From positions 276,325 to 340,324 of the IMG/VR virus record IMGVR_UViG_3300050120_000230: a DNA stretch of 64,000 bases, one strand, 5' to 3'. Both the position numbers and the translations under genes were made by a program. How positions within the stretch are numbered: the stretch's first letter is position 1; each line of letters starts with the position of its first letter. Below the pieces are notes generated by a model. It had not been told where the DNA came from. It made no database searches and saw only the letters and a program-made list of their open reading frames with translations. This stretch comes from a virus. Below are positions 163 to 62,407 of the stretch, one piece after another.

Positions 163-405
163 ATGGCGGCCGACTTTCACATCAAAAAGCACCATGCCGC
201 AGAGATGGAAGAGCGTCGGCGCCAATTCCCGTACTCGTTCAGGATGAGCACGGTTGTTGGCCCGAGGAAGTTCGCGACGAAGGCCGAAGTCATGCAGTGC
301 CGCGCGTTCTTTGAAGGCCAGAAAGTTCTCGTCAATAAGAACACCGCGTACTTCGTCAGAGTGGAAGATGCTATTTTCTTCAAGATGGGGATGTGGCTGA
401 CATGA
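163..405 (+). CDS. small protein, C-terminal DAxFFKM family
   Basis: An 80-residue protein of unknown function. It ends in VEDAIFFKMGMW, which places it in the large DAxLFKMxW family scattered through this window. The N-terminal part is basic and helical, and the C-terminal half looks like alternating strands. It overlaps the next gene by an ATGA junction, so the two are probably translationally coupled. Confidence 0.75.
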   Translation: MAADFHIKKHHAAEMEERRRQFPYSFRMSTVVGPRKFATKAEVMQCRAFFEGQKVLVNKNTAYFVRVEDAIFFKMGMWLT

Positions 406-797
406 TCCGGGTCGGTGGCATTCTGCTCCAAGACGTGCTTGATCTAGGGAGCAAAGTCTTTGTCGATGGTGGGCACGATCCTGAACGGAGCGGGGAGCTT
501 GGTCTCACCGTGGGAGACGAGATTTCTGCTCTCACCATTGCGGTCGCTGGTGCGAAGTTCACCCACGATATTGTCGGTGGTCCGGCTGTTACGCGCTATG
601 TTCTCTATGGGCGTCGGTGGCGGATTTGGGTCGAACTGCACAACGGGCAATTGAGCCCGAGAGACCCTGAAAACATAGAACCCACGCTACTCCGAAAAGC
701 GCGTGGGTTCTACAGATTGAGCGATTACGATTTCCAAGGTAATCCTTGGGATTTCGAAAGAGACATGACCATCGGTCGGATGGCCGGTCTCGTTTAG
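402..797 (+). CDS. small protein, C-terminal DMTIxRM family
   Basis: A 131-residue protein of unknown function. The ATG at 402 overlaps the upstream stop; a GTG nine bases earlier is the alternative. The C-terminus FERDMTIGRMAG matches the DMTIARM signature of other small proteins here (at 26428, 26900, 48048). It is followed convergently by a minus-strand gene whose end overlaps by four bases. Confidence 0.75.
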   Translation: MIRVGGILLQDVLDLGSKVFVDGGHDPERSGELGLTVGDEISALTIAVAGAKFTHDIVGGPAVTRYVLYGRRWRIWVELHNGQLSPRDPENIEPTLLRKARGFYRLSDYDFQGNPWDFERDMTIGRMAGLV

Positions 798-1072
798 GTG
801 CGCTTGTTACGCCAGAAGTTGCCCGTGGCGGCGAGGTGATAGCTGGTCTTGCTATCCTTGCTCACGACGGTGAACCAACCATCTTTGGTAAGTTCGTCCA
901 CGGCGGCGGCGAACATCTGGTCATCGGGACCACGACCGGAAGCAGCTAGAACAGCCGTGCCATCCTTCGATGAGTTGATGAGGTCTGCAACCTGAGTGAG
1001 GATCGAGTCCTTATAGTCCTCGAACTTGGTCATCGGCGGCGGGGTAGGAGTAGGGGTGGGGTTATTCGGCAT
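794..1072 (-). CDS. hypothetical protein, Pro/Thr-rich N-terminus
   Basis: A 92-residue protein. The first 14 residues are a Pro-Thr linker-like segment, followed by a compact domain with a conserved-looking DGWFTVV segment. A GAGG ribosome-binding site precedes the ATG. It lies just downstream of the neck-protein gene on the same strand, so it is probably a late gene co-transcribed with it. No family was recognised. Confidence 0.65.
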   Translation of the reverse strand: MPNNPTPTPTPPPMTKFEDYKDSILTQVADLINSSKDGTAVLAASGRGPDDQMFAAAVDELTKDGWFTVVSKDSKTSYHLAATGNFWRNKRT

Positions 1073-1098
1073 GAAAAATCCTCAAAATATGTTAAAAA

Positions 1099-1863
1099 TC
1101 AACCGATGATGAACCCGTAGCCCTCATTTTGATCGATGAGGTTCTTCAGTTCGTCTTCGAGTTTGTCCATCTCTGCCTGAGCTTCGTTCTTGAGAGCGTC
1201 GCCGTTCAGAGTAATGCCGCCTTGGGGACCAGCCAGAGATGCGAACTTGCTGCGGGCTTGGCCGAGCAGCATCTTCGAATTGGCGATGGCCATGCTACGC
1301 AGCCACGGCTTGGCGTAGACATCGTTCAACAGAACTTCTTCCGGGCGGGCGTTGAAGCAATGCAGGCCCACTTGTTCCACGGCGCCGAAGCGGCGGTGGA
1401 AGGTGATGCGCTTGGACGAAGAGTCCCATGTGAACTGCACGTCGCGGCCGAACATGCGGCCGATCAGCGATTGATACTGCATGGCGAAGTCGTAGGTCGC
1501 CAGCAGACCCGCACCCGTCGTGCCCAATTGGGCCGGGTTCTGAATCATGTAGATGTTGTTCGTGAACGCGAGACTGAACGGGTCGATGGTCGAACCACCG
1601 GAGCTACCGTTCACGCGGCGATAGACGGAGCGCACTTCCTGCACTTCCGGGGGCAAGGTGTAGATCGCCACATCCGGCTGTACGTCGAGGAACACGAAAC
1701 TTTCTTCGATGGCGTTACCCGAACGCTGCCGATAGCGGTCAAGCGTCACGGTGATGGCGTAGTTGTATTCTTTTTCCTCAAGTTCAACCTCCATCATCGT
1801 GCCACCGAGAGCGATCTCGATTTCTTCGATGAGGCGTTGACGAGCAGTTTGTTCGGCGGCCAT
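1099..1863 (-). CDS. T4 gp13-like neck protein
   Basis: A 254-residue protein resembling the head-completion (neck) protein gp13 of T4-type phages, which helps join the filled head to the tail. The N-terminus is a helical segment followed by an acidic stretch, a FVFLDVQPDVAIYTLPPEV-type strand region, and an RxVYRR motif typical of this family. A C-terminal helix ends in GYGFIIG. It is slightly shorter than T4 gp13. A late promoter element lies exactly 27 bases before the ATG, and an AAGGA ribosome-binding site is present. The gp14-like gene is encoded divergently just to the right. The family call is from recall of conserved pattern and position. Confidence 0.65.
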   Translation of the reverse strand: MAAEQTARQRLIEEIEIALGGTMMEVELEEKEYNYAITVTLDRYRQRSGNAIEESFVFLDVQPDVAIYTLPPEVQEVRSVYRRVNGSSGGSTIDPFSLAFTNNIYMIQNPAQLGTTGAGLLATYDFAMQYQSLIGRMFGRDVQFTWDSSSKRITFHRRFGAVEQVGLHCFNARPEEVLLNDVYAKPWLRSMAIANSKMLLGQARSKFASLAGPQGGITLNGDALKNEAQAEMDKLEDELKNLIDQNEGYGFIIG

Positions 1864-1890
1864 GAGGACATCCTTAGAGGAGTTGCCCAG

Positions 1891-1898
1891 TATTTATC
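1891..1898 (-). promoter_or_regulatory. late promoter GATAAATA (minus)
   Basis: On the minus strand this reads GATAAATA, close to the T4 late-promoter consensus TATAAATA. It ends 27 bases before the ATG of the gp13-like gene, the same spacing as at the endolysin and gp15-like genes. Confidence 0.7.
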
Positions 1899-4664: not shown

Positions 4665-5303
4665 ATGGACGTTCTTGGTATTCAAAATAGGTTGGTGGCA
4701 GCAGGCTTCAGTCCCGGCAAGGTCGATGGAGACATTGGCCCGAACACTTACACCGCGATCATCAATTACGCTGCGAAGAAAGATTTGGGCGCGCTATCGG
4801 TGCTGCTTGGCCGGGCCATGGCATCCGATTTCCCGAAATATGGGATCGTCACGCCTCTACGGATCGCGCACTTCATCGCGCAGGCATGTCACGAGACCGG
4901 CGGGTTCCACTACCTGAGCGAACTGGGGTCGGGCAAAGACACCAACCACGACGGGTATGACGACTACCTGCAACACTACGATTTTCGCAAAGACCTTGGC
5001 GATAGCCATGTGGGCGACGGTGACAAATATCGCGGGCGTGGGCTGTTCCAGATCACAGGCATCTTCAACTATACCGTCTATGGCACACGGATCGGCGTGA
5101 ACTTGTTGGCCAACCCGGCACAAGCCGCACAGCCCGAGATCGCAACGCTTACCGCGTGCCTCTTCTGGTCAGATCGCAAGCTGAACAACTATGCTGACGC
5201 CGACGACGTGACGACGATCACCAAGAAGATCAACGGCGGCCTGAACGGTCTAGTTGATCGTCAGACCATCACCTATCGAATGAAGGTCTTGCTCGGCGCC
5301 TAA
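4665..5303 (+). CDS. endolysin: peptidoglycan-binding domain + GH19 glycosidase
   Basis: A 212-residue lysozyme that cleaves the glycan chain of peptidoglycan for host lysis. Residues 1-40 form a PG_binding_1-type repeat (GIQNRLVAAGFSPGKVDGDIG followed by NTYTAI). Residues 65-212 match family GH19 (chitinase-like lysozyme): HETGGFHYLSE with the likely catalytic Glu77, YRGRGLFQITG at 122-132, and KKINGGLNGLVDR near the C-terminus. No signal peptide or membrane segment is seen, so export would need a holin or spanin pathway that I do not see next to it. A late promoter 27 bases upstream fits lysis timing. Confidence 0.9.
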   Translation: MDVLGIQNRLVAAGFSPGKVDGDIGPNTYTAIINYAAKKDLGALSVLLGRAMASDFPKYGIVTPLRIAHFIAQACHETGGFHYLSELGSGKDTNHDGYDDYLQHYDFRKDLGDSHVGDGDKYRGRGLFQITGIFNYTVYGTRIGVNLLANPAQAAQPEIATLTACLFWSDRKLNNYADADDVTTITKKINGGLNGLVDRQTITYRMKVLLGA

Positions 5304-5932
5304 CCGTTCAGGTGAGACATCATCGTGTCGAGCGGCAACGTCGCCGACACTTTGGTCAAATCGGTCAGCGTTTTTTGATCGTCCCGGTGAAACTCCGGGT
5401 TGTGAACGAACATCTGCTTGGCCTTGGCGTGCGTGAGACCCAGAAGGCGGGCTTCGGCCTCACTGAGCTTCGACATGGCGCTCATCCGCAGGAACTCGTT
5501 GACCGCCTGATCGTCGTGGAACAGAGACAAGGTCAGGTCTTCGACTTGCATCTTGTAGCTGACGATCCGCAGGGTTTCCGGGCGGACGCTGTCTTCCCAC
5601 GGAATGGCGTTGTCGATAACGACGCGCTTCCAGATGTCCAGAAGGTTTTCGGCTTCCTCGACACCAAACACACATGGCGAGTTGTAGCAGTCGAGGCAAT
5701 GTTGATTGACACGAACGTAGGTCCATTGGCCGTCGTGACGTTGCACCACAAACGTCAGATAGTCCTTGTCCGGGTTCGTCGCGACAGTCGCCCCGCCGTA
5801 AGAGCCGTGGCCGTTCACCGAGGATGGGGAACATGTCTGGTTCATATTCTGGTGGGCTTGGGCGCGGCTGCCTCTGGGAACACTGAAATGCTTCGGCCGG
5901 ACGGCGCGCGCCACTTTCTTTTGGGTTTTCAT
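5300..5932 (-). CDS. hypothetical protein with CxxCxxxxC motif
   Basis: About 210 residues, starting at ATG 5932 (a GTG six bases earlier is the alternative). The N-terminus is basic. A central HCLDCYNSPCVFGVEEAENL segment carries three cysteines and may bind metal, although only one such cluster is seen. The C-terminal half is helical and ends in TLPLDTMMSHLNG. Convergent with the endolysin, overlapping by four bases. No family was recognised. Confidence 0.7.
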   Translation of the reverse strand: MKTQKKVARAVRPKHFSVPRGSRAQAHQNMNQTCSPSSVNGHGSYGGATVATNPDKDYLTFVVQRHDGQWTYVRVNQHCLDCYNSPCVFGVEEAENLLDIWKRVVIDNAIPWEDSVRPETLRIVSYKMQVEDLTLSLFHDDQAVNEFLRMSAMSKLSEAEARLLGLTHAKAKQMFVHNPEFHRDDQKTLTDLTKVSATLPLDTMMSHLNG

Positions 5933-13402: not shown

Positions 13403-13678
13403 TCAGAGCGTAAGGAACATTTTCGCGAAGACAGCATCGGCCGGGACCTTGCATCCCACGATGTATTCGTAGTTCACCGAATGCATGGTGCAGAATGTCC
13501 AATCGTTCGTCATGAATGGCGCGACTGCATCTGGAAAATCAGAAGGTTTGATTTTCGAAGAGATCGTGACCGTGCATGGGAAACCATTGTCGATCATGTA
13601 TTGGAGACGTTCATCCCAATCGGCGTGTTTCTGGTAATACTCACCAGCCCATTCGCTTAGAGGAATGCACCTACTCAA
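13403..13678 (-). CDS. small protein, degenerate DAxxxKMF family
   Basis: About 91 residues. TTG start overlaps the stop of the upstream minus-strand gene. Ends in PADAVFAKMFLTL, a variant of the DAxLFKMxW C-terminal motif. Last of four tandem minus-strand genes (14506 to 13403) that all carry versions of this ending. Confidence 0.6.
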   Translation of the reverse strand: MSRCIPLSEWAGEYYQKHADWDERLQYMIDNGFPCTVTISSKIKPSDFPDAVAPFMTNDWTFCTMHSVNYEYIVGCKVPADAVFAKMFLTL

Positions 13679-13938
13679 AACCAGAACAACTTGAACATAG
13701 TTGCATCGGTCTCACTGACCGTTTCGAATGTCGGCTTGTAGCCTATGCCAGAATACCAACTGGCATTCATGTTCTCAATGCACCAGTCCCATGTTTCATG
13801 GGCCATGAAGTAGCCGTCGTTCTGGTTGCCCTCAACGAGATGGCGAGGCAAGTCGATCTTATATACGACAGGTTTCGTCGATTGGATCAGTTCGACCCAA
13901 TTGTTCAAGCCACAGTAAGATTTACCGAGAGCAATCAT
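13675..13938 (-). CDS. small protein, DAxMFKLFW family
   Basis: 87 residues, ending ETDATMFKLFWF. The central region has a WDWCIENMNASWYSG segment, which fits the family's helix-then-strand layout before the C-terminal motif. Overlaps both neighbours by four bases, consistent with a tandem cassette. Confidence 0.75.
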   Translation of the reverse strand: MIALGKSYCGLNNWVELIQSTKPVVYKIDLPRHLVEGNQNDGYFMAHETWDWCIENMNASWYSGIGYKPTFETVSETDATMFKLFWF

Positions 13939-14252
13939 AGCCAGAACGTCTTGAAGAGCACGGCGTCGCGCTCGTTGAATAGTTGAAAATGGATATACGT
14001 CTTGGGACGGGGCTCATAGTGACAGACGTTCACCAGTCCTTCTCTATTTTCCATGAGCCAGTCATAGGCATCTTGTGCTCGCCCACTGAACATGTTCGGC
14101 CCGAAGTCATAGGACGCGCGCTTCGGTGTGGCAGCCGTTCGAAGCTTCAGGCCAAACGTCGCCACGGTCACGTTGCAGAGTTCAATGATCTCTGGCGCGG
14201 GCTCATTAGCACCATCGCCCCATCCGAAAGGAAACACCGGCCTCACATCCAC
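13935..14252 (-). CDS. small protein, DAVLFKTFW family
   Basis: 105 residues, GTG start overlapping the upstream gene. Ends FNERDAVLFKTFWL. As in other members, a helix with a Trp (AYDWLMENREGLV) is followed by a short His/Tyr strand and the motif. Third member of this minus-strand tandem cassette. Confidence 0.75.
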   Translation of the reverse strand: MDVRPVFPFGWGDGANEPAPEIIELCNVTVATFGLKLRTAATPKRASYDFGPNMFSGRAQDAYDWLMENREGLVNVCHYEPRPKTYIHFQLFNERDAVLFKTFWL

Positions 14253-14506
14253 ATCAACTTGAACTGCAAGGCATCGCGATAATTGGGAATGCCCAGATAG
14301 AAAACATCTGCATTTGAATTCGGGTAAAACAGGTCCGCAAAATTTGCCTTTGCCCAGTTGAATGCGGCTTCCGCCTTTGGCTCCCAGTTATAGACTGCCA
14401 CCGGCGCGTCGCAACATTGAATGGCTTCTCGTTGCAACGCAAATACCCAGCCCGCCGCAACTTCGACCGGCCCAGAGATTTCCAAAATCGGGTCAGAGAT
14501 TTCCAT
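14243..14506 (-). CDS. small protein, DALQFKLMW family
   Basis: 87 residues, first gene of the tandem minus-strand cassette. Ends IPNYRDALQFKLMWM. Contains the family helix (AFNWAKANFADLF). Divergent from the gene at 14584. Confidence 0.75.
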   Translation of the reverse strand: MEISDPILEISGPVEVAAGWVFALQREAIQCCDAPVAVYNWEPKAEAAFNWAKANFADLFYPNSNADVFYLGIPNYRDALQFKLMWM

Positions 14507-16779: not shown

Positions 16780-17503
16780 GTCGTTCTCGTATCGGGGTTG
16801 GCGTGGGGCTGGCTTCAAGTTCAAGTTCACCAAAGGCGTAAACGTCTTGGTGGGGATGAACGGCTGCGGCAAAACCAACTCTGCCGAACTGTTGGCGATT
16901 CTTGTGGGTCACAAAGACGCGCACAAACTGTTGCGCGAAGACGACCAACTCAAATACGCCAAGATCGTCGTCGGCGAAGACGTGGGACCGTCTGCTACGC
17001 AGCGATACGTTTTGGAACTGAAGGACGGCATCGACCTTGAGAAAATCAACGCCTTCAAGGACTGTTTACCAACACTGACCAGTTTCGTGCTTCAGCAAGA
17101 CGATCTGCGGGATGATCGGTTCGTGACGGCTAGGCGCGAGCCGGTTGAATGCCAAAAAGACATGCTGGAATGGCTCCGCGCGCACGATCTCGATCTGCGG
17201 CTCTACGTCAAGGATGGTGAGTACGCGACATTGCTGGTTAGCGAGACCGGCGCGCAACGCTATCTGATGACCGTGGGGATGCGGCGGGCGCCGAGCGCAA
17301 CGCCGATGATCGTCGAGCATCCCGAGCGCAGCCTCCACATCATGCTGCGGAGGCGGATTGCCGATTACTATCGCGAGAGCAACGATCAGCAAGTCATCTT
17401 GACGACGCATGACCCGGAAGTGCTTAGCATGGTAGACAGTGCTCGATGGGGCACATACCACGATTGTGCCATCGACATGTCGGACAAGAAAATCAGATGG
17501 TAA
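16769..17503 (+). CDS. ABC/RecF-like ATPase with altered Walker B
   Basis: A 244-residue P-loop protein. Walker A is GMNGCGKT at 29-36 after an amphipathic IESFSYRGWRG start, as in RecF/OLD-type ATPases. A short signature-like RYLMTVGMRR is followed by PMIVEHPERSLH, where the usual DE of Walker B is replaced by EH, and by ILTTHDPEVLSMVD, the switch-like region. The family's coiled-coil arm is very short or missing. With the catalytic Glu replaced by His, ATP turnover is doubtful. Could sense DNA ends or act as a decoy. Start ATG 16769 overlaps the upstream gene. Confidence 0.7.
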   Translation: MYIESFSYRGWRGAGFKFKFTKGVNVLVGMNGCGKTNSAELLAILVGHKDAHKLLREDDQLKYAKIVVGEDVGPSATQRYVLELKDGIDLEKINAFKDCLPTLTSFVLQQDDLRDDRFVTARREPVECQKDMLEWLRAHDLDLRLYVKDGEYATLLVSETGAQRYLMTVGMRRAPSATPMIVEHPERSLHIMLRRRIADYYRESNDQQVILTTHDPEVLSMVDSARWGTYHDCAIDMSDKKIRW

Positions 17504-17961
17504 CGGTCAAGGACTTGTCTAATCTTCTCGATACGCTGGTCGTCGATGACACGCGCTCGATCATTCTCGTTCCAAAGCAAACGCCGAATCACCTAGACTC
17601 AGCGCACTCCATCCCACCGGAATATTTGTGGATGATTCCGTTGTCGGCGGCTGGACACTACATCATCCACGACCACGCCAAAGAACCAGAGGGCATACAA
17701 GCATTTGAGCATTGTAGGTCACCGATCATTCAATACGATTTGTATGATGACCGTAGCTTCAGCTACCAGCGCACTCGTCTCCACGACATGGGCATGACAC
17801 AGTGGTGCGAAGAAACCCTTCGCGGCCACTACATCGTGCGTAAGAACTATGAGGCGGTTTTGCCGCCGCCGAGCGTCAAAACGATCATCGAAGTCTGGTT
17901 CGATGACCCAGTGGACGCCGTGGTTTTCAAGATGCGATGGAAGGGCAACCCATGCGAATAG
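17497..17961 (+). CDS. DAVVFKMRW-family protein (154 aa)
   Basis: ATG 17497 overlaps the ATPase stop. Larger than most family members, with an N-terminal DLSNLLDTLVVDDTRS helix and a long middle. The family unit is C-terminal: MTQWCEETLRGHYIVRK, then WFDDPVDAVVFKMRW. Coupled to the next gene. Confidence 0.7.
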   Translation: MVTVKDLSNLLDTLVVDDTRSIILVPKQTPNHLDSAHSIPPEYLWMIPLSAAGHYIIHDHAKEPEGIQAFEHCRSPIIQYDLYDDRSFSYQRTRLHDMGMTQWCEETLRGHYIVRKNYEAVLPPPSVKTIIEVWFDDPVDAVVFKMRWKGNPCE

Positions 17962-18254
17962 AGGATCGCCCGAACATCGCTCTTTCGCATCTTGACCTTC
18001 AAGATGGCAGGCACGAGGACATCAGCGATCTGCCTATCGTCGTCGTGCCGTTGAAAAACGTCTGTATTTCTGGTGGCAGCCTTGCATTGGCGCCCGAGAC
18101 TAGGCATTGGCTAATTGCCAACGTCGGCCACCAATATCGTGGCGAGCAGATTTCGTGCTGGGATTATATCCTCGCAGAGAGCGCCACCGGGCTCGCGACG
18201 TTTCGGTTCAAAGACGTAACGCACGCCACCTTGTTCAAAATGTTCTTCTCATGA
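17952..18254 (+). CDS. HATLFKMFF-family protein (100 aa)
   Basis: ATG overlaps the end of the preceding gene. C-terminal FKDVTHATLFKMFFS matches the DAxLFKM pattern with His for Asp. The middle has the family helix (ETRHWLIANVG). Directly followed, again with overlap, by the LNxLLKMF tandem array. Confidence 0.7.
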   Translation: MRIEDRPNIALSHLDLQDGRHEDISDLPIVVVPLKNVCISGGSLALAPETRHWLIANVGHQYRGEQISCWDYILAESATGLATFRFKDVTHATLFKMFFS

Positions 18255-20748: not shown

Positions 20749-20824
20749 GGAGCGGTAGCTCAGTGGTAGCAGCGCCGGTTTGTCAGGCCGAAGGTCGCGG
20801 GTTCGATCCCCGTCCGCTTCGCCA
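20749..20824 (+). tRNA. tRNA-Asp (anticodon GTC)
   Basis: Acceptor stem GGAGCGG / CCGCTTC (one G-U pair), T-loop TTCGATC, and encoded CCA. Anticodon loop TTGTCAG reads GTC (Asp). The anticodon stem has a C-A mismatch at its base; otherwise the clover-leaf is complete. Confidence 0.85.
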
Positions 20825-21299: not shown

Positions 21300-21587
21300 C
21301 TACATCCATTTCAGCTTGAACAACGTCGCGTCATTCAATGACTCGAAGTGCAGAAGGAAAGCGAACTCAAGGCCGCCTTCCTCTTCCCGCGAGACTTGCA
21401 GCGAGAGATAGACATCTTCGAGCATCGTCTCCCGAAGCCACGTCTTGATGTCAGGATTGAAAGCGGTGATCTCGGAATCGCTCAGGCCGCCATCCACACA
21501 AAACGGCGAATCGCACGGCAACTCGACGCGGATCAGATCATTCACGATCTGCGGTGGGTGCGGATGTTTGATGAACAGTTCGGCCAT
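21300..21587 (-). CDS. DATLFKLKW-family protein (95 aa)
   Basis: Minus-strand gene right after the tRNA cluster, ending ESLNDATLFKLKWM. Middle has the family helix (DIKTWLRETMLEDVYLS). Start ATG 21587 is eight bases from the oppositely oriented late promoter at 21595. Confidence 0.75.
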   Translation of the reverse strand: MAELFIKHPHPPQIVNDLIRVELPCDSPFCVDGGLSDSEITAFNPDIKTWLRETMLEDVYLSLQVSREEEGGLEFAFLLHFESLNDATLFKLKWM

Positions 21588-27897: not shown

Positions 27898-28285
27898 ATA
27901 TCATCCGCTCGACAAAGAGCGTCCCACCACAGATGTGACGAACGAAGAGTTGATGCAAATCCTCTCGGGCGAAATCTTGCCTCGGGATGTTCACTGGCAG
28001 CGTTGGCAAAAAGAACGTGTCAAGAGGATGAAGGCTGCGCGCCTCGATTTCACGGGTCATCTGAAAACGTTTCATACTCGCGAACTGATGCAAATGCATC
28101 GCGACGGTAGCATTCAGGGGTGGGCCAATTTCGGCATTCTCGCCGAGGTGAGTTATAGCGAAAAAATCGAAACCATGGTGCGAGCGGAACTCGCGACTCG
28201 TGAGCACATTCCGAACAAAACCGAAGCCAAGGCACTGCGGAGGGCCGCCGCCACGAAGCATCATGGCCCTAGGAAGCGCGCATGA
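27890..28285 (+). CDS. paralogous basic protein B (131 aa)
   Basis: Begins MAEYHPLDKERPTTDVTNEE, then LMQILSGEILPRDVHWQRW, the same motif as the previous gene. Ends HIPNKTEAKALRRAAATKHH-GPRKRA. It lacks the C-terminal extension of its neighbour. Overlaps it by eight bases. Confidence 0.65.
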   Translation: MAEYHPLDKERPTTDVTNEELMQILSGEILPRDVHWQRWQKERVKRMKAARLDFTGHLKTFHTRELMQMHRDGSIQGWANFGILAEVSYSEKIETMVRAELATREHIPNKTEAKALRRAAATKHHGPRKRA

Positions 28286-28632
28286 CGGCTAGCGCAATGA
28301 ACACGGCTGCAATTTTGAAGATGGCTGCGAAAATACATCTCAACAGTCACTATCCGAAAATGTCCCAACGCTTCGCGCCAATCTATGGCGCCGCCACGAA
28401 TTATCTGGAAGACCGGCGGCCGGACATCACGGAATATTCGTCGGCGGGCTACCGTCTGTTCATCCTGAAAACGGATGGAGAAACTCCTTCCCCTCGCGCG
28501 GCCGAAGCCGTGCAATGGCTCAGCGACAACAAGATCGTCCATGAGTATGAATTCCAGCTTACGCGGAACTCGATTTGGATTAGGTTCCCTCGTGGAGAAG
28601 ACGCCGCCCTGTTCAAATTGTTTTGGATGTGA
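28282..28632 (+). CDS. DAALFKLFW-family protein (116 aa)
   Basis: ATG overlaps the preceding stop. Family layout: helix RAAEAVQWLSDNKIVHEY, a short strand, and PRGEDAALFKLFWM at the C-terminus. An extra N-terminal half precedes the domain. Confidence 0.7.
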   Translation: MTASAMNTAAILKMAAKIHLNSHYPKMSQRFAPIYGAATNYLEDRRPDITEYSSAGYRLFILKTDGETPSPRAAEAVQWLSDNKIVHEYEFQLTRNSIWIRFPRGEDAALFKLFWM

Positions 28633-31112: not shown

Positions 31113-31555
31113 TGGGCGCGCAAGAACTCTGGAAGCTGGCCAACAATTTCGACGACTTGGGCGTGGTGACATCGAAGCCGCGTATCGGCTCCATTGGCTC
31201 GCGTTGCGAGCACCATTACGTCACGCACATTCGCGACAGTGGCGATGCGGCGGCCTATGCCGACATGACCTTCCTGACGGCGATGGATATCTTCCAGCGC
31301 ATCCAGCGATTCGAAGTTCGCGACGAACGCAATCGTCTCGCGCTCGAACTGCTCAAAGCATCATCGAAATGCGAGTGCAACGTTCTGCGTCTTTGGACGC
31401 CGAGGGGCAACCCGAACGACTCCAAGGGCACCTACGTTTTTCCGAAGACCGAACACGACGCGGCGGTGTTCGCGATCTTCTTCAATGAGACCGACCCGGC
31501 GATCTGGCGGCACGAACGTATCGGTGAACCGAGGATGTTCTTTTTCAACCAATGA
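31112..31555 (+). CDS. DAAVFAIFF-family protein (147 aa)
   Basis: The segment FPKTEHDAAVFAIFFN corresponds to the DAxLFKM motif, here with AI in place of FK. It is internal, followed by 25 residues. Upstream helix VRDERNRLALELLKAS. Function unknown. Confidence 0.65.
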   Translation: MGAQELWKLANNFDDLGVVTSKPRIGSIGSRCEHHYVTHIRDSGDAAAYADMTFLTAMDIFQRIQRFEVRDERNRLALELLKASSKCECNVLRLWTPRGNPNDSKGTYVFPKTEHDAAVFAIFFNETDPAIWRHERIGEPRMFFFNQ

Positions 31556-31833
31556 CTTTCGTGCTAAGTAGGCCGATGGATATTCGTTGTTCCCCTCGTG
31601 ACTCGACCAACCAACAGGAAGACGCCTTTCTGATTGAGGGACCGTGGGCAGAAATTGCCTACGTCCTGAAATGGATCGCGGCGAACTGTTCGACGGTATG
31701 GGAAAGCAATTTCATTCCGAATGGGAATTACGGGCCGGGAAATGTCTCCTACAACGTCAAGTTCAAGGATGAACGTGACGCTATTTTCTTCAAGATGATG
31801 TGGCATGGGCATAGTTTCTCGGAAGTTGCGTGA
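31552..31833 (+). CDS. DAIFFKMMW-family protein (93 aa)
   Basis: ATG overlaps the previous stop. KDERDAIFFKMMW near the C-terminus, with the family helix IAYVLKWIAANCSTVWES. Overlaps the next gene by 29 bases. Confidence 0.7.
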   Translation: MTFVLSRPMDIRCSPRDSTNQQEDAFLIEGPWAEIAYVLKWIAANCSTVWESNFIPNGNYGPGNVSYNVKFKDERDAIFFKMMWHGHSFSEVA

Positions 31834-32098
31834 CGCATTCCTGAAGCCGGAATGGCAGTTCGTGGAAGGCAATAAGATGCCTAGCGCGTGGGAGGATGAA
31901 CCTCCGGCGTGCGGTGGCCTATGCTACCTCGAAGATGAAGTTGCCCAATGGTGCAGGGAGAACTACACCAAGCCTCCCACAATCTGGTTCCTCGATCTGA
32001 CCGACTATGACAAGTGGGTTCAGAATTGGTTGATCGATTTTCGCTCCGAGGCCGACGCCCTGCTCTTCAAAATGCGATGGAGTGATTATCGGCGGTAA
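31805..32098 (+). CDS. DALLFKMRW-family protein (97 aa)
   Basis: Ends FRSEADALLFKMRWSDYRR. Family helix EDEVAQWCRENYTKPPTIWF. Stop lies just before the promoter at 32100. Confidence 0.7.
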   Translation: MGIVSRKLRDAFLKPEWQFVEGNKMPSAWEDEPPACGGLCYLEDEVAQWCRENYTKPPTIWFLDLTDYDKWVQNWLIDFRSEADALLFKMRWSDYRR

Positions 32099-32488: not shown

Positions 32489-32635
32489 CGATGATAACTG
32501 TCGAGTTCCGGCGACAGGAGAGCTTCGCGTGCGATCCTCGCCGCCTCTTGCTTCGTGCTGTTCTCGCACGGCGAAGCGGCTACACCGAAGCATAACCGTA
32601 AGAACGCGGATGCGACGAGACGTTATCAGGAGCTT

Positions 32636-33325
32636 ATGGAACGGCAGGGCGAGTTCGTGGAATGGTGCAAGACCAATCTGCGCGGCCTCTATCGCATTCG
32701 CACCGATGTGCAGGCGAGCATCTACATCTGCACCACTCTGGAAATCACCAACGACATCGACGCTCTCTGTGTGAAGATGTGGTGGCAAGATGATTTCGAT
32801 GAGTCCAAAGACAACGTCATCATCGGCAAATCGCACGACGAGTGGTTGTGGGCGCCGCCGTCGCGTCTGTTCGGCGACAACGAGCCATCGTTGGCCCTCG
32901 AAATCGACAAGCAAGGCCAATGGGGCAACAGTGGCTTCGTCAAGCGGGGACCTCTCATGCATCCGAGCGGTGTCCCCTACACCTTCGCTGAAGGCGTTCA
33001 AACTGGGCTCGCGGGTGATCCCTACTTCACGCCGACCATCGAGACGAAAGATCGTCTGCTGGCGCTGGCGCCGACCGAAGAGCAACGCGAAATCTTCATC
33101 AAATACTGCTCGGACTACGTGATGGTCCATGCGTTGAGCGAGCCCATCACCGACACCATTGTGGATGACGTGATCTTCGACGCCATCGTTTCCGTCGATG
33201 ACGACAAGGCTGAAGCCTTCGAGACGATCTGGGCCAGCGCCTTCCAGCGTTTCCGGCGAGACAACCTGATGACTTCGGCCCTCAGCAAACTGGCCGTGGC
33301 TCATGTGACAAGGCCGGTGTCCTAA
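32636..33325 (+). CDS. two-part protein with internal DAxxVKMWW motif
   Basis: About 229 residues from ATG 32636 (AGGAG three bases upstream). An in-frame GTG at 32555 would add 27 residues; the domain begins at ERQGEFVEWCKTNLRG, which favours the later start. The DAxLFKM-type motif is DIDALCVKMWW, near residue 47, so the family domain is N-terminal here, followed by a 170-residue unrelated region (many Asp/Glu). The gene ends just at a late promoter. Confidence 0.55.
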   Translation: MERQGEFVEWCKTNLRGLYRIRTDVQASIYICTTLEITNDIDALCVKMWWQDDFDESKDNVIIGKSHDEWLWAPPSRLFGDNEPSLALEIDKQGQWGNSGFVKRGPLMHPSGVPYTFAEGVQTGLAGDPYFTPTIETKDRLLALAPTEEQREIFIKYCSDYVMVHALSEPITDTIVDDVIFDAIVSVDDDKAEAFETIWASAFQRFRRDNLMTSALSKLAVAHVTRPVS

Positions 33326-41121: not shown

Positions 41122-41478
41122 GTGGCCAAGTTTACCTTCGGCGGAAACGACATTGTCGGCCGCAACATCGTCATCAATGGCAATACGATCATCGTCGATG
41201 GCGTAATTGTCGAGGGCAATGCCAGCGGCAAGATCGAACTCCGTATCCTCGAAGGTGTCGTCGAGAACATTACGTCCGACCGCTCGGTCAATTGCCTGAA
41301 CGTGGCCGGGAACGTGCAGGCTGGAAGTTCCGTGAATTGCGGTGACGTGAAGGGATCGGCGAGCGGCGGAAGCTCGGTCAACTGCGGTGACATCGGTGGG
41401 GACGTGCGGGCCGGAAGTTCGGTCAACTGCGGCGACATCGCTGGATCGGTCACGGCACAAAACGTTCGGCGGGGATAA
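41122..41478 (+). CDS. Cys-repeat beta-solenoid-like protein (118 aa)
   Basis: GTG 41122 follows GGAG. After an N-terminal strand part come four near-identical ten-residue repeats: SVNCLNVAGN, SVNCGDVKGS, SVNCGDIGGD, SVNCGDIAGS, each followed by a V-x-A-G-S-like spacer. A Cys falls at the same position in every turn. The pattern resembles bactofilin-like or right-handed beta-solenoid proteins. It may form a filament or a metal- or disulfide-stabilised rod. Ends at an overlap with the next gene. Confidence 0.6.
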   Translation: MAKFTFGGNDIVGRNIVINGNTIIVDGVIVEGNASGKIELRILEGVVENITSDRSVNCLNVAGNVQAGSSVNCGDVKGSASGGSSVNCGDIGGDVRAGSSVNCGDIAGSVTAQNVRRG

Positions 41479-41975
41479 TGATGATCGATCCTCCCGATAT
41501 TGAAATCGGAGACACGGCTATCGTGTTTCTTCTCAATGACAGGGAAAAACGCGTCCATCAACTCACTGGGATGATTACTGCCAAGCGTGGACTATGCCGT
41601 GGGTTTCGAAAGTATGGCTCCAATGATGGTTCTCGCCTCGGATTGGTAATCAACGGCTGGCTCACGGCTACACTTAGAGACGATGAAGATACATTCGCCG
41701 CCGGGCGTTTTCGCAATTTTTCCGATGTGAACTTCTCAGCAAAAAACGACGTTGTTTTTCGATCTGAGCGGCGATGGGTAGGCGACCACCTTGATTGGCT
41801 CGGTGAGATACCGAAAGGTCGCTGGGGCCTTCGCAACGTGCTTGGATTCAGTCTGGCCGAAGATGGCTCCACGGTATTGGACACGACGGGGAACCCAATG
41901 ACCCATCGCAAGACCTATATTAGTTTCGAAGATGCCAATGACGCTATCCACTACAAACTGCGATGGGTCGGGTAG
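41478..41975 (+). CDS. DAIHYKLRW-family protein (165 aa)
   Basis: ATG overlaps the previous stop. The C-terminus FEDANDAIHYKLRWVG is the family motif with HYK for LFK. The N-terminal region is strand-rich with DTAIVFLLNDREKRVHQL. No promoter before it, so co-transcribed with the solenoid gene. Confidence 0.7.
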   Translation: MMIDPPDIEIGDTAIVFLLNDREKRVHQLTGMITAKRGLCRGFRKYGSNDGSRLGLVINGWLTATLRDDEDTFAAGRFRNFSDVNFSAKNDVVFRSERRWVGDHLDWLGEIPKGRWGLRNVLGFSLAEDGSTVLDTTGNPMTHRKTYISFEDANDAIHYKLRWVG

Positions 41976-49228: not shown

Positions 49229-49456
49229 ATGAGCACCATCGAAGTAACGTATCAGGGTCAACGATACGTAATTTCGTTCGATGCTCATGGACGAGTGCAA
49301 AAGGTGAAGGTGGCTTACGTTCGAAATCACGGGACGCAGCGGATTGGCGTGCTGCGTTCCGTGTATCCGAGCAATAGTGCTCCTACTGAAGTCACCCTAG
49401 CGGTGATTCGTGAAGCGGATGAGCAATGGCAGTCCCAGAACAAGATGACCGGATAG
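49229..49456 (+). CDS. hypothetical protein (75 aa)
   Basis: ATG after GAGG. Strand-rich: TIEVTYQGQRYVISFDAHGR and VQKVKVAYVRNH. No family recognised. The next gene's ATG lies within its end. Confidence 0.6.
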   Translation: MSTIEVTYQGQRYVISFDAHGRVQKVKVAYVRNHGTQRIGVLRSVYPSNSAPTEVTLAVIREADEQWQSQNKMTG

Positions 49457-49683
49457 TCGTTGTCACGCTCACATCGTGTACCGTGTTCTGGGCAGAACTA
49501 GGCTACCGTGAAAGTGACCGGGCGCGGCATCATGCTGCGAACATTTTCGACAGCGAAATCGGCCCGTGGCTAGAGGCCAATTCAAAGCACAAGTTCAACG
49601 CCCACACTGACGGCGTCTGGTTCCTCGATCAACAGGACGCCGCCCTCTTCAAGCTGATGTTCCACGGTCGATTTGATGCTTGA
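49426..49683 (+). CDS. DAALFKLMF-family protein (85 aa)
   Basis: Overlaps the previous gene by 31 bases. Family layout: helix FDSEIGPWLEANSKHKFNAH, strand GVWF, then DQQDAALFKLMFHG. Followed by an overlapping membrane-protein gene. Confidence 0.7.
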   Translation: MAVPEQDDRIVVVTLTSCTVFWAELGYRESDRARHHAANIFDSEIGPWLEANSKHKFNAHTDGVWFLDQQDAALFKLMFHGRFDA

Positions 49684-52321: not shown

Positions 52322-52509
52322 AAGTCTTCGTGTGGCAACGCTCAGATGGCTGGGCATGGCAAACCGAGAAGGACAAGGCGCCGTGCGGTTTCGGTTTGCT
52401 CCTGAAGGAATTGGCAACCGAAGAAGCTGAACAAGTTTGCCGGGCGAGACAGGTCAAAATCGACATCGTCTTCACGAACCCGGATGGCGAACCATCCCTG
52501 AATGCATAA
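52318..52509 (+). CDS. hypothetical protein (63 aa)
   Basis: GTG with GGAGG upstream, overlapping the previous stop. Begins MKVFVWQRSDGWAWQTEKDK, strand-turn-strand, then a helix with Cys. No family recognised. Confidence 0.55.
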   Translation: MKVFVWQRSDGWAWQTEKDKAPCGFGLLLKELATEEAEQVCRARQVKIDIVFTNPDGEPSLNA

Positions 52510-52786
52510 GCCCATCGGTCAAATCGTCTGCTTCGACTCGCGTGGGCGGCGGACGACCGAATTCACCATTGACGTGAATGAACGGTCGGACCTCGTGGCA
52601 AAGCGAGACGATAGAGGCCACCCGTATACGCTGCCGGGCTTCAGGCTGTCCGACGAGATCATTCAGTGGATACAGACCAACGTCACCAGTGAATATCGGA
52701 CGAATCATTCACCACAGGCACGGTATTTGCATCTCTGGTTTGCAAGTGAAAGAGATGCTACGCTGTTCAAGACATTCTTTGGTTAA
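52502..52786 (+). CDS. DATLFKTFF-family protein (94 aa)
   Basis: Overlaps the previous gene by eight bases. Helix SDEIIQWIQTNVTSEYRTN, then WFASERDATLFKTFFG. A degenerate TTGGTT-type sequence lies right after its end, before TrpRS. Confidence 0.7.
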   Translation: MHKPIGQIVCFDSRGRRTTEFTIDVNERSDLVAKRDDRGHPYTLPGFRLSDEIIQWIQTNVTSEYRTNHSPQARYLHLWFASERDATLFKTFFG

Positions 52787-52791
52787 GCAAA

Positions 52792-54419: not shown

Positions 54420-54859
54420 TGGAACCGACAATTCAATATGCGCGGACTGGCGGCGACTTTGATGAGATCAAAGTCGATGGCGCCTCTGTGCATATCGAAC
54501 GGATGTCCGGCGGTCACATTTGGATGGTGATCTCTACCGAAGATCAGAGCGTCACGCTCGACTTTCAGACCAAACGGTTCAGTGACAAAGTCGGCGTGCG
54601 AGCGATGAACGACGGTTTCAAAATGCGCGGGCGGCCGAACCGGCAAGTGACCGAATACAACGAAGTGAAGCCGTTTGGCGCTTTGTTCACGGCGTTGGAT
54701 GGCGGCGTGGTGTTCGACTTCACCGATCATCCAGAGAACACGGCTCCACGCGGCGCTTGGCGGGGGCTCGGTGTTGCTCTCTTGGCTTTGAGTGCGTTGA
54801 TCTCGTTCGGCGCGCTTTGGGCGTTTTTCAATTGGCTATGGCAAGTCGCCCATCCGTGA
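54419..54859 (+). CDS. hypothetical protein with C-terminal TM helix (146 aa)
   Basis: Soluble strand-rich region with VSVHIERMSGGHIWMVIS-like segments, then a hydrophobic C-terminal helix (LGVALLALSALISFGALWAF). Probably a tail-anchored membrane protein facing the cytoplasm. Overlaps both neighbours. Confidence 0.6.
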   Translation: MEPTIQYARTGGDFDEIKVDGASVHIERMSGGHIWMVISTEDQSVTLDFQTKRFSDKVGVRAMNDGFKMRGRPNRQVTEYNEVKPFGALFTALDGGVVFDFTDHPENTAPRGAWRGLGVALLALSALISFGALWAFFNWLWQVAHP

Positions 54860-55383
54860 TTTCAATCGAACAATTCATAAATCAGCACCACGATCATACC
54901 CTCCATGCAGGTGACTTCGAGGCGGCCGGTTTCTATTCGGTGAACTACGGTAGGACGGAAACCCACATCGAGTGGAGTGAATTGCACAAGATGTGTCAAA
55001 GCATCTTCGGGCATTACGGGTTCATGTGGACTGGCTCGATTTTTTGGTTCGAAAACGAGAACAACGCCTTTCTATTCAAGTGTCTCTTCAATTGGGGACT
55101 TGGCGATCTCGCGAGAAATTTCCACTTCGCCATTCGGGTGATCGAGGAAGAATATACGAGATACAACCAAACTGAAGAGGCGGTCGTAGTCGCTCAGCGG
55201 TTGCGAAAAGACTACGGCGTTCGAATTTCAACCGACTCTCTTTATATGGGTAGGTGGATCGGGTTGCAATCTGAGCGAGATGCGATGTATGCTCGCCTGA
55301 TGTTACCGAACCATGTGTTCGTGAAGCTCCATGAGCTTCGCGCTACCAGAATGGAACTCATGAATGGCTCACGATCCGATTGA
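54838..55383 (+). CDS. protein with two DAxLFKM-type domains (181 aa)
   Basis: ATG 54838, 22 bases inside the previous gene. First half ends FENENNAFLFKCLFNWG; second half ends LQSERDAMYARLMLPN. Both follow the DAxLFKM motif, so the protein looks like an internal duplication of the family domain. No other domain seen. Confidence 0.7.
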   Translation: MASRPSVISIEQFINQHHDHTLHAGDFEAAGFYSVNYGRTETHIEWSELHKMCQSIFGHYGFMWTGSIFWFENENNAFLFKCLFNWGLGDLARNFHFAIRVIEEEYTRYNQTEEAVVVAQRLRKDYGVRISTDSLYMGRWIGLQSERDAMYARLMLPNHVFVKLHELRATRMELMNGSRSD

Positions 55384-56661: not shown

Positions 56662-56768
56662 ACGGGCGATCAATTCTGAATGCGGCAGCACTGGCATTCC
56701 TGTGGTGGGCAGTCTGGACGGGGTGCAACTACTTCTTCCACACCGTCACCCATCTTGTGCCGACCTAG
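56658..56768 (+). CDS. tiny membrane peptide (36 aa)
   Basis: ATG overlaps the preceding stop. Hydrophobic, Trp-rich helix (NAAALAFLWWAVWTGCNYFF). Could be a small holin-like or leader peptide; that is only a guess. Confidence 0.5.
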   Translation: MNGRSILNAAALAFLWWAVWTGCNYFFHTVTHLVPT

Positions 56769-57049
56769 AACCAGAATATCTTGAAGAGCGCGGCCGATTT
56801 TGCGTTCTTGAAAATCAAGCGAACGCCGGATCGCCGGTGTTCGCATTTGGTCCCTTCAAGATTTTCCATGATCCAATCCCAGACGACTCGTTTGAGACGG
56901 TAATACGGAACGCTTGGATATTTTACGACCCGACCTTTCGATTGGATATTCACACTCGACATACCCCAGTCAAGTAGATGATGATCTGAGAGCAAGTCGA
57001 TCACCGCAACCAGTTCTGGTTCTGGCTCCGTGAATACAAGTGGAATCAT
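56765..57049 (-). CDS. AALFKIFW-family protein (94 aa)
   Basis: Minus-strand gene at the end of a tandem set. Ends NAKSAALFKIFWF. The helix YRLKRVVWDWIMENLEGTKC is the family helix. Convergent with the tiny plus-strand gene. Confidence 0.7.
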   Translation of the reverse strand: MIPLVFTEPEPELVAVIDLLSDHHLLDWGMSSVNIQSKGRVVKYPSVPYYRLKRVVWDWIMENLEGTKCEHRRSGVRLIFKNAKSAALFKIFWF

Positions 57050-57267
57050 AGCCAGAACAATTTGAACATTGCCGCGTCTTCTTTACGCTTAAACAACAAA
57101 CCAACGGTCATTTCACCACGATGATAGTCGTAGAAACCTTTGCAGTTGCCCTCCAACCAGTGCTCTACCTCCTCGGTGAGATGGACTTGGTCGCCGAATA
57201 CCGGTGCTTTCTCAACAATTTTCGGATTCCGCTTTAGGTCGAGCGAGAACATGAATGATGAGAACAT
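57046..57267 (-). CDS. DAAMFKLFW-family protein (73 aa)
   Basis: ATG 57267 overlaps the upstream stop. Ends KRKEDAAMFKLFWL; helix LTEEVEHWLEGNCKGFYDYH. A short, almost minimal version of the family domain. Confidence 0.7.
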   Translation of the reverse strand: MFSSFMFSLDLKRNPKIVEKAPVFGDQVHLTEEVEHWLEGNCKGFYDYHRGEMTVGLLFKRKEDAAMFKLFWL

Positions 57268-57632
57268 CAGAGCCAAAACATTTTGAAGAGAACAGCGTCA
57301 CGTTCTGACGCGAAGACAATTTCCATCAAGAAATTGGCGGCGGGGTGCTGGCGGGTTGTGAAACCGGAAGTATTCTCTTCCGCCCATGCCCGAGCGGCGA
57401 CGCCCAACATTGGTTTTGACTGGCTCTCGTAACTGTAGGGGCTATCCCAGTGACAAACTGGGTTACTATTGAATGCACTGAGCACCACGCTGTTTGGCGC
57501 TGCCGGAGCATCGGTCACCGGAGGGAGTTTATTGAAATCGCGGATGATTGCGCTGAGATCGCCGGGCTCGTGCTTCATCGACATGAGCACCCACACTTTA
57601 TCCCACTTGGCGCGAAGGGCTTTCCTGAGCAT
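57267..57632 (-). CDS. DAVLFKMFW-family protein (121 aa)
   Basis: Ends FASERDAVLFKMFWL. The helix is LGVAARAWAEENTSGFTTRQ. The N-terminal 50 residues are extra (basic AKWDKVWVLMSMKHEPG). Coupled at both ends by overlapping codons. Confidence 0.7.
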   Translation of the reverse strand: MLRKALRAKWDKVWVLMSMKHEPGDLSAIIRDFNKLPPVTDAPAAPNSVVLSAFNSNPVCHWDSPYSYESQSKPMLGVAARAWAEENTSGFTTRQHPAANFLMEIVFASERDAVLFKMFWL

Positions 57633-57841
57633 CAGGCGGCCAGTTGCGCTTGAGGCTTCGTCGAGAGGAAGACCATTTTCTCCACCACTTTTCGAACACG
57701 AGTCTGCTGTCCCATCCGAATCATGTAGGCTTCGGCCGCGTCCACCGCAACTTTCGGTTTGATGCCGGGCGACATGTGCTCTTCGACTGCGACCCAGACT
57801 TTACCGTAGACGTTAGCCTCTACGACGAACTTCGTGCTCAT
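57632..57841 (-). CDS. hypothetical protein (69 aa)
   Basis: ATG 57841 in a TGATG junction. Strand-rich start (KFVVEANVYGKVWVAVEEH), then a helix. Lacks the FKM ending of its neighbours. No family recognised. Confidence 0.6.
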   Translation of the reverse strand: MSTKFVVEANVYGKVWVAVEEHMSPGIKPKVAVDAAEAYMIRMGQQTRVRKVVEKMVFLSTKPQAQLAA

Positions 57842-58233
57842 CCCCACCTCATCTTGAATAACAGGGCATCGTTTTCTTCACGGAAACAGACTGCCTCGCC
57901 ACCTTTTTCGAGAAGCTCACGTTCACCTCTCTGGATGCCATAGGCAACCAGATCGCGCGGTGGAAATGTCGGATATGGTCCCCACCGATCACTCCACTCA
58001 AACGTGAACCATTTTTGGTTGGGATATTGTCCGGCCGAAAGTTGGCTTCCTTTGCCGACGTTTTCATCGAGCCACTGCAAGCGTTCCGAAGCATATTTCC
58101 TCGTTCGGAACACGTCTTCGTAGAACACTTCGTTGTAAGTGCCCGGCGTCATCATGACGAAGTGTGGGAAGATATTGTTGGCCCTGAACTCATACACGAG
58201 TTGTACGGGATCGACTTTTCTAAGCTTGTTCAA
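57838..58233 (-). CDS. DALLFKMRW-family protein (131 aa)
   Basis: Ends FREENDALLFKMRWG. Larger member with helix YASERLQWLDENVGKG early and a long strand region between it and the motif. Coupled to neighbours by overlaps. Confidence 0.7.
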   Translation of the reverse strand: MNKLRKVDPVQLVYEFRANNIFPHFVMMTPGTYNEVFYEDVFRTRKYASERLQWLDENVGKGSQLSAGQYPNQKWFTFEWSDRWGPYPTFPPRDLVAYGIQRGERELLEKGGEAVCFREENDALLFKMRWG

Positions 58234-61119: not shown

Positions 61120-61462
61120 CGATTTCACCCGACAACATGATGAAAGTCAGATCGCGAAGGAAGTTATCATAACCGTGAGCAGTGGTTGACCTGTCCTGTT
61201 GATAGGCCACCCATGTTGCCTTCCAGTCAGGTGCGAGAAGTGTATGGAAGAACTTCGCAGGTTTAGGTTCACCATCGCCTGCTTGGAAAACGGCCGCGTT
61301 GTATTCACAGATGACGATTATATCCAAATCAATACCCGCGACTCGCATACGTCGATCATCGGGTCCGCGCATTATGTTGCGGCCATATTTGGAGACATGG
61401 TTCGCCAACCGGAAAAGCTGTTCTTCCGTGCTTTCATCAAGTTTTACCGGCGATGAGTTCAA
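61112..61462 (-). CDS. DLTFIML-family protein (116 aa)
   Basis: TTG 61462 is chosen because AGGAG lies eight bases upstream; a TTG at 61486 would overlap the -10 of the promoter. Near the C-terminus, YDNFLRDLTFIMLSGEIDA is a variant of the DMTIARM motif. Function unknown. Confidence 0.6.
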   Translation of the reverse strand: MNSSPVKLDESTEEQLFRLANHVSKYGRNIMRGPDDRRMRVAGIDLDIIVICEYNAAVFQAGDGEPKPAKFFHTLLAPDWKATWVAYQQDRSTTAHGYDNFLRDLTFIMLSGEIDA

Positions 61463-61484
61463 GAGGTCTCCTATCTTCGAGACC

Positions 61485-61512
61485 AACCTAGCTCATATTT
61501 GATTTTGGTCCA
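61485..61512 (-). promoter_or_regulatory. early-type promoter (minus), weak
   Basis: Minus strand: TGGACC (61512-61507), 16 bases, TAGGTT (61490-61485), the same -10 as at 23357 and 22596. It overlaps the 3' end of the upstream gene. Confidence 0.45.
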
Positions 61513-61924
61513 CCAGATAATCGCGGCGACGATCCATATCGACGAGTTTGTCCAGCACAGCTTTATAGTCCCGCTCGTGCTCATCACCGTTGAACTTCTC
61601 GATGATGGCGCTGTGCTCGCTGGCTTGTCGGAACTTGTGGTGGATGATGTTCGTCACATAGGAGAACGGAATGTCTGCGGCGGCCAACCGTTCTTCCAAA
61701 ACCGTCTTGGCTTTTTCGTTCGCCGCGTCGAACCACATCTTCATCAACGTGTGACGATAGGGGTTGTTGAGCTTCATCATCTCCCGCAGGCCACCGAAGT
61801 AGGGCGTGAATACGTTGGTCACCGCCGTGGCCAATTTGGCATCACCGTGCCGATTCAGTTTCTCAGCTAAGATACGGCAGGCGGGAGTCCGGCCAAATGT
61901 TTGGAGATCAAGGTTTAAGCTCAT
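61493..61924 (-). CDS. hypothetical protein (143 aa)
   Basis: ATG 61924 overlaps the upstream gene; the longer frame to 62104 conflicts with it. Starts MSLNLDLQTFGRTPACRILA; helical, with EERLAAADIPFSYVTNIIHH and a C-terminal LVDMDRRRDYLVDQNQI. No family recognised. Confidence 0.6.
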   Translation of the reverse strand: MSLNLDLQTFGRTPACRILAEKLNRHGDAKLATAVTNVFTPYFGGLREMMKLNNPYRHTLMKMWFDAANEKAKTVLEERLAAADIPFSYVTNIIHHKFRQASEHSAIIEKFNGDEHERDYKAVLDKLVDMDRRRDYLVDQNQI

Positions 61925-62174
61925 ATCGTTTCCCACCATCACCAACGAACAGCCTGAACAGGGCGGCTTCTTGCTCCTGTTCAAATAGGAAGGTGATGAA
62001 CCTAAAGCCAGAGTAACTGGACGAGCCAATGGTGAACCGGTAATTGCAATCTCGCGCAACGAGATAATCGTTCCATTCTTCCAATCGAAACTCGATGTCG
62101 CCATCGGTCAAATAGAACTGGAACTTGGTCCAAGACTCGATCTCCTCTTGCGTGAGGGGTGAGACCGATTTCAT
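61908..62174 (-). CDS. AALFRLF-family protein (88 aa)
   Basis: C-terminal FLFEQEQEAALFRLFVGD is a variant of the DAxLFKM motif with Arg for Lys. Helix part: LTQEEIESWTKFQFYLTD. Coupled to the previous gene. Confidence 0.65.
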   Translation of the reverse strand: MKSVSPLTQEEIESWTKFQFYLTDGDIEFRLEEWNDYLVARDCNYRFTIGSSSYSGFRFITFLFEQEQEAALFRLFVGDGGKRYELKP

Positions 62175-62407
62175 CCGTGGAAAAAAAGCTTGAAAAGCAA
62201 GGCGTCACGCGCTTCAGAGAACGAGAACTCTAGTGCTTTCTGAGAACCCTCATTGGATATGCTCAGATTGTAATACCCGGTAGCATTGATGTCTATCCAT
62301 TCTTCGACACGCGTCATCCACTCAAAATCCCAATGATGTCCGATGATAATTCGAACTGGAAACTCAAGCTTGTGTGCTTTCAGGTTCGCATGTGCTGGCC
62401 GAACCAT
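62171..62407 (-). CDS. DALLFKLFF-family protein (78 aa)
   Basis: Ends FSEARDALLFKLFFHG. Helix FEWMTRVEEWIDINATGYYN. Overlaps both neighbours. A compact family member. Confidence 0.7.
   Translation of the reverse strand: MVRPAHANLKAHKLEFPVRIIIGHHWDFEWMTRVEEWIDINATGYYNLSISNEGSQKALEFSFSEARDALLFKLFFHG

Follow-up and report, generated by a model that had tools for sequence, protein, structure and literature searches.

A single small protein domain has expanded into dozens of genes in the phage genome held as IMG/VR record IMGVR_UViG_3300050120_000230 (415,409 bp), of which we analyzed bases 276,325-340,324, a stretch of 64,000 nucleotides hereafter called the window. The genes share a conserved C-terminal module, are arranged in tandem arrays, and diverge rapidly while remaining under purifying selection. 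We tentatively interpret them as variants of one scaffold directed at different molecules of the host.

Members of the family throughout the genome

We seeded a profile hidden Markov model (HMM) with 17 cores from the window and iterated it over all six-frame open reading frames (ORFs) of the complete genome. The census returned 72 family members at E ≤ 1e-3 and 78 at E ≤ 0.01, with lengths of 70-185 aa and a median of ~105 aa. Among control sequences, no reversed ORF scored below E 1 and no shuffled ORF below E 0.1 (best shuffled match in the own-genome census, E 1.7). A first-pass annotation of the window, made from the sequence alone, had grouped 24 genes between positions 163 and 62407 into one family. 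All of these ORFs are present in the sequence, and the grouping held for most of them: 19 of the 24 matched the profile at E < 0.01 and two were borderline, while the membership of the remaining three, listed at 13403 (E 25), 22910 (E 1.9) and 31112 (E 21), was unsupported. Members are indeed found across that interval, in tandem cassettes on both strands as described, but the 72 confident members are spread over the genome and are not confined to the window. The supported and borderline members in the window are as follows.

163..405, plus strand: borderline member with tail EDAIFFKMGMW (HMM E 0.037, compared with 0.0013 for its ortholog G008_47936_48262)
13675..13938, minus strand: member, cassette 1 (HMM E 2.7e-12)
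13935..14252, minus strand: member, cassette 1, with a 4-base overlap with the 13675..13938 gene (HMM E 1.3e-11)
14243..14506, minus strand: member, cassette 1 (HMM E 3.5e-7)
17446..17961, plus strand: member, first annotated from 17497 (HMM E 1.5e-12)
17937..18254, plus strand: member, first annotated from 17952 (HMM E 1.8e-11)
21300..21587, minus strand: member adjoining a tRNA cluster (HMM E 1.9e-9)
28282..28632, plus strand: member (HMM E 6.5e-10; G008 ortholog, 45% identity)
31552..31833, plus strand: member (HMM E 9.2e-14; G008 ortholog, 55% identity)
31805..32098, plus strand: member, AlphaFold model 2 (HMM E 7.1e-15; G008 ortholog, 73% identity)
32555..33325, plus strand: divergent member, long extension at the C-terminus, first annotated from 32636 (HMM E 0.0026)
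41478..41975, plus strand: member whose variable N-terminal part is long (HMM E 1.3e-12; G008 ortholog, 41% identity)
49426..49683, plus strand: member (HMM E 1.7e-9)
52502..52786, plus strand: member flanked by two aminoacyl-tRNA synthetase genes (HMM E 7.8e-14)
54757..55383, plus strand: borderline member, first annotated from 54838 (HMM E 0.083)
56765..57049, minus strand: member, cassette 2 (HMM E 1.7e-8)
57046..57276, minus strand: member, cassette 2, AlphaFold model 1 (HMM E 6.6e-14)
57267..57632, minus strand: member, cassette 2 (HMM E 5.8e-12)
57838..58233, minus strand: member, cassette 2, whose loop carries a long insertion (HMM E 5.3e-8)
61908..62174, minus strand: divergent member, cassette 3 (HMM E 6.2e-5)
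62171..62407, minus strand: member, cassette 3 (HMM E 3.9e-11)

A compact C-terminal module with a shared predicted core

The conserved module occupies ~45-50 residues at the C-terminus, and the chain usually ends a few residues past the last W. It opens with helix 1 ([ED][IV]xxW[CL]xxN), which is followed by a loop, strands and then helix 2 (xxxxDAxLFK[LM]x[WF]); the core motifs are ExxxWCxxN and FxxxxDAxLFKLxW. Between helix 1 and the strand that ends in F lies a variable loop of ~10-50 residues that itself contains a strand, and the N-terminal part outside the module also varies among members. Across 302 cores, the most conserved residues were W (98%), the second F (95%), a K or R (93%) and the first F (87%). 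The final motif position was W, F or Y in 99% of cores, and the only common cysteine position held C in 48%. The C-terminal DAxLFKMxW motif that first drew attention to these genes is shared, but it is looser than originally written and forms the end of a domain rather than an isolated tag.

Two divergent members of the window were modeled with AlphaFold, and both are predicted to have the same helix-strand-strand-helix core, with core predicted local distance difference test (pLDDT) values of ~85-93, although the two underlying alignments have most of their other sequences in common and the models are not fully independent. The model of 57046-57276 had a pLDDT of 83 and a predicted template modeling score (pTM) of 0.68; in that of 31805-32098, the core scored ~85-93 and the N-terminal part below 60. 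Searches of the PDB gave no significant match (sequence E ≥ 0.42; fold E ≥ 0.75 and ≥ 1.3 for the two models). The fold matches of model 31805-32098 were mostly ferredoxin-like (RNA recognition motif [RRM], ACT, PII-like and acylphosphatase folds), all at E > 1, a hint that the module may resemble half of a ferredoxin-like fold; likeness to the complete RRM fold, with its four strands and two helices, was limited to a weak ferredoxin-like resemblance among these insignificant matches. Viral models with a similar fold were uncharacterized phage proteins, for example from Agrobacterium phage Atu_ph07 and Rhizobium phage RHph_TM30. No convincing match came from profile searches of Pfam, PHROGs and NCBIfam, in which hits were scattered near E 0.002-0.05 and none exceeded a family cut-off. 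The isoelectric point (pI) of members is widely spread around a median of ~6, a spread on which we rejected a reading of the family as DNA mimics. Only 25-44% of members have a pI above 8.

Tandem arrays are probably translated as coupled units

The longest array was found in a 561-kb relative (G009), in which an uninterrupted run of 46 members occupies a single strand from 370,109 to 382,863, with reading frames intact. Of the 165 tandem junctions in this genome, 98 had an ATGA overlap and 24 a one-base overlap, an arrangement that points to translational coupling and makes each array a probable polycistron with coupled translation. At 23 of these junctions the same 12-base word, AAATGGCTATGA, recurs; it encodes K-W-L-stop and includes the next ATG. 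We rejected the idea of a shared promoter: between 44 and 64 kb of the window, sigma-70-like promoters showed no excess (six found, 9.9 expected). We also considered and rejected an upstream regulatory word: the enriched words derive largely from the F-K-M codons of the preceding member and so reflect tandem overlap, not regulation.

Copy number is volatile within one clade of phages

Related loci were sought with a degenerate DNA motif encoding DAxLFK[ML]xW, and members were counted by running the profile over whole records together with full iterated censuses; counts from the own-phage profile only are lower bounds. The first-pass annotation had made the absence of a common fold and of homologs in other phages its own grounds for abandoning the idea of a family; the shared predicted core described above and the homologs found in other phages speak against both. 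G009 carries 245 members (266 at E ≤ 0.01) and the cultured Sinorhizobium phage Phosso 45 (50 at E ≤ 0.01); other counts were G029 (59), G027 (56), G035 (51), G041 (50) and G010 (15). Few copies were found in Pseudomonas phage PA5oct (3), Atu_ph07 (2-5) and G001 (2), and small contigs held 1-4 copies each. All larger carriers with a detectable tail sheath fall within the clade of Atu_ph07 and Phosso, and inside this one tail-sheath clade copy number ranges from 2 to ~245. The profile found no family match in T4, phiKZ, phage G, P-SSM2, XacN1, CcrColossus, SCTP-2 or Tunturi_5, nor in three 635-kb metagenomic phages.

One adjacent pair of members is kept across the clade and likely represents the ancestral copy. 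It lies at 371,165-371,968 in our phage, at 192,818-193,572 in G009 and within locus L325 in G010; both partners occur ~1 kb apart in Atu_ph07, and one is present in Phosso (175,678-176,022). Beyond this pair and one further pair in G009, almost no orthologs were recognizable outside the nearest relative, G008: at 50 bits or more we found three to G009 and one to Phosso, even though the tail sheath of our phage is 55% identical to that of G009 and 42-44% to that of Phosso. Between our phage and G008, one array has kept its order, yet genes within it have been gained, lost and duplicated. Among the 266 candidate copies of G009, pairwise identity reaches 50% at most (median 33%), which indicates that they are kept as different genes.

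We compared orthologs between our phage and G008 to measure the divergence. Family pairs had a median identity of 42% (n = 12), compared with 64% for other small genes (n = 34, p = 0.0013) and 71% for large genes (n = 28, p = 0.0018); the ortholog filter left out two family pairs (67% and 73%), with which the family median would rise just slightly. The proportion of nonsynonymous differences was below that of synonymous differences (pN < pS) in all 12 pairs, with pN of 0.11-0.42 and pS of 0.51-0.86. Therefore, the family genes are real and kept, and they evolve fast under purifying selection. The rapid evolution proposed at first is borne out in its rate, but it proceeds under constraint in every pair. 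The constancy of the C-terminus was also evident, as the last 15 residues were 71% identical and the body 53%.

Copies on bacterial mobile elements

The family also occurs, in a few copies, on mobile elements of the alphaproteobacteria Methylobacterium nodulans and Microvirga. The 37.5-kb M. nodulans plasmid pMNOD04 carries three members in tandem (L328:5159-6126), the first of which (5159-5368) is without an annotated gene. In two of the copies on Microvirga chromosomes, at L294:5542-6006 and L300:1180-1659, an Xre-type helix-turn-helix domain is fused to the family module, with HTH_3 above its cut-off and the module after it; an integrase gene lies ~3.4 kb from the L294 fusion. We rejected the fusion as a general feature, as five further matches among bacterial family proteins cover the helix-turn-helix part only, without the module. 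Chromosomal members are rare in bacteria: of 249 genomes sampled from the order that includes Microvirga, one had a member, and that genome was the center of the search.

A candidate scaffold for binding host molecules

The explanation that we prefer, tentatively and with somewhat less than even confidence, is that the members share one scaffold and use its variable parts to bind different targets in the host, possibly in its defenses. The ~45-50-aa module would act as the stable scaffold, and the variable N-terminal segment together with the loop between the two strands would form different binding surfaces. Each copy might then bind a different host molecule, whether a defense component, an enzyme or a regulator, and thereby adjust or disarm the host. 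Copies would arise by tandem duplication, be produced together from coupled operons, and diverge quickly or be lost while host targets change. This interpretation draws on the volatile copy number, the kept diversity of copies, their fast but constrained divergence and the coupled arrays. We also counted in its favor the Acb1-domain anti-defense gene in the same genome (see below). Finally, the homologs of PA5oct and Atu_ph07 map to metabolism or RNA-repair regions or close to them, away from the main virion clusters; those of PA5oct (gp237, gp210 and gp209) are placed at or beside the region for nucleotide metabolism and carry no virion mass-spectrometry note, a weak point taken up below. The family itself, its predicted core, coupling at the level of sequence, divergence under purifying selection and volatile copy number are shown by the analysis, and a non-virion role, host targets and an anti-host or anti-defense action of members are inferred.

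Several observations weigh against this explanation. No member matches a known anti-defense family in Pfam or PHROGs, and pairwise dN/dS averages over the 12 ortholog pairs gave no sign of positive selection. The conserved residues may be just a hydrophobic core and uninformative on function, dispensable regulators would also turn over rapidly, and an anti-host role is less obvious for the copies on bacterial mobile elements. A bolder form of the scaffold explanation, which we regard as rather unlikely, is a repertoire comparable to immune receptors or effectors, in which one scaffold under tandem birth-and-death would yield dozens to hundreds of coupled variants, produced together on infection and each aimed at a different host target.

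A less probable explanation is that the members are nucleic-acid-binding regulators, in which an RRM-like or ferredoxin-like module controls phage or host transcription or translation, by analogy with T4 RegA or the zinc-ribbon expansion of phage G. The mostly ferredoxin-like fold list of the second model, the position of the module after an Xre-type domain in two Microvirga genomes, and the one near-invariant basic residue are all consistent with such a role. However, the fold matches were insignificant, no conserved ribonucleoprotein (RNP)-like motif was found, the fusion was seen in Microvirga only, and the median pI is ~6, with just 25-44% of members above 8.

We consider it improbable that the genes encode virion or injected internal proteins, in which the constant module would tag a variable cargo for packaging. 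Constant and variable halves would fit a targeting tag, and large capsids offer room for many proteins, as illustrated by the 131 found in Atu_ph07 virions (PMC6102473). Yet the module is predicted to fold as a compact domain, unlike a cleavable tag, and the Atu_ph07 homolog gp258 belongs to none of the three large clusters of virion proteins. The three PA5oct homologs all lack a note of detection by electrospray ionization tandem mass spectrometry (ESI-MS/MS), which 25 of 66 genes within the same 40-kb region carry, a weak point given that such an outcome is expected in ~23% of cases by chance and small proteins are easily missed.

Two further explanations appear very unlikely. If the fold bound small signaling molecules such as cyclic nucleotides, the copies could serve as sponges that neutralize different defense signals; ligand-binding PII-like and ACT folds do occur among the insignificant matches, and the Acb1-domain gene suggests that the phage counters signaling of the cyclic-oligonucleotide-based antiphage signaling system (CBASS) type. 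Nevertheless, conserved positions are mostly hydrophobic, with no conserved polar pocket residue except the one K/R, and the variable parts are too unlike for one ligand class. Amplification that is neutral or selfish, and largely without function, would account for tandem arrays, high turnover and the unassigned function, but it is largely excluded by pN < pS in every ortholog pair, the lack of near-identical copies, and frames that stay intact over up to 46 consecutive genes despite limited gene space.

Neighboring genes in the window

The Acb1 (anti-CBASS) domain (Pfam E 2.8e-37) forms the N-terminus of a 497-aa protein encoded at 38750-40243 (plus strand), in which ~330 residues of unassigned function follow it. 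The tRNA cluster next to the member at 21300..21587 spans 20749-21297 and comprises five tRNAs and one doubtful call, and the synthetases on either side of the member at 52502..52786 (50487-53856, plus strand) are both class I enzymes, one cysteinyl-type and one Trp/Tyr-type. At 42885-47854 (plus strand), genes for a PrkA serine protein kinase, a DUF444 (YeaH-like) protein and SpoVR are adjacent and correspond to the bacterial yeaG-yeaH-ycgB set; the kinase has relatives in other huge phages at ~60-74% identity. Two neighboring ORFs at 18722-19564 (plus strand) share NxLFKMFxI near the N-terminus, with a third ORF at 18505-18750. Their likeness to the family tail is only superficial, and they possibly form a second small paralogous family.

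Comparison with known systems

Anti-CRISPR and other anti-defense proteins are likewise small, fast-evolving and encoded in clustered accessory genes. Those families are mostly unrelated in fold, whereas here one fold is present in dozens to hundreds of copies. The internal proteins of T4 combine a constant N-terminal capsid-targeting sequence with a variable part. In IPI-IPIII, however, the constant part is short and N-terminal, while in the present family it is a folded C-terminal domain. RegA of T4, a single-copy gene, is also a small phage protein, and its architecture may be similar if the module is ferredoxin/RRM-like, but it has no sequence match to the family. It is an RRM-fold translational repressor (PMC7824862). 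Small phage proteins that manipulate the host (reviewed in PMC11323111) fall in the same size class and have a presumed host-directed role; a word search of that review found no expanded paralogous family. Paralogy terms led to no mention of such a family in the publications on Atu_ph07 and on jumbo phage AP-J-162 of Sinorhizobium, and we did not find it described in the open-licence literature, although a description elsewhere is possible.

Most jumbo-phage genes are without an assigned function, and here one domain makes up ~72 genes in one phage and ~245 in another, so the function of a single member would account for a large share of jumbo-phage dark matter. Should different members turn out to bind different host factors, the arrays would be a library of phage inhibitors that is already assembled. 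The question can be tested in cultured phages, as the family is sparse in Atu_ph07 and PA5oct and abundant in Phosso.

The closest parallel is found in Bacillus phage G, whose ~35 zinc-ribbon copies were called unprecedented in a survey of 224 jumbo phages (PMC7824862). In both cases, a jumbo phage carries a small domain that has expanded in a lineage-specific manner. The domains differ, as the single common cysteine position of our family does not provide the metal-binding cysteine quartet of zinc ribbons, and so do the numbers, with ~35 copies in phage G compared with 72 in our phage and ~245 in G009. The small phage protein family reported here appears to be undescribed and, measured against this published benchmark, the scale of its expansion appears to be new.

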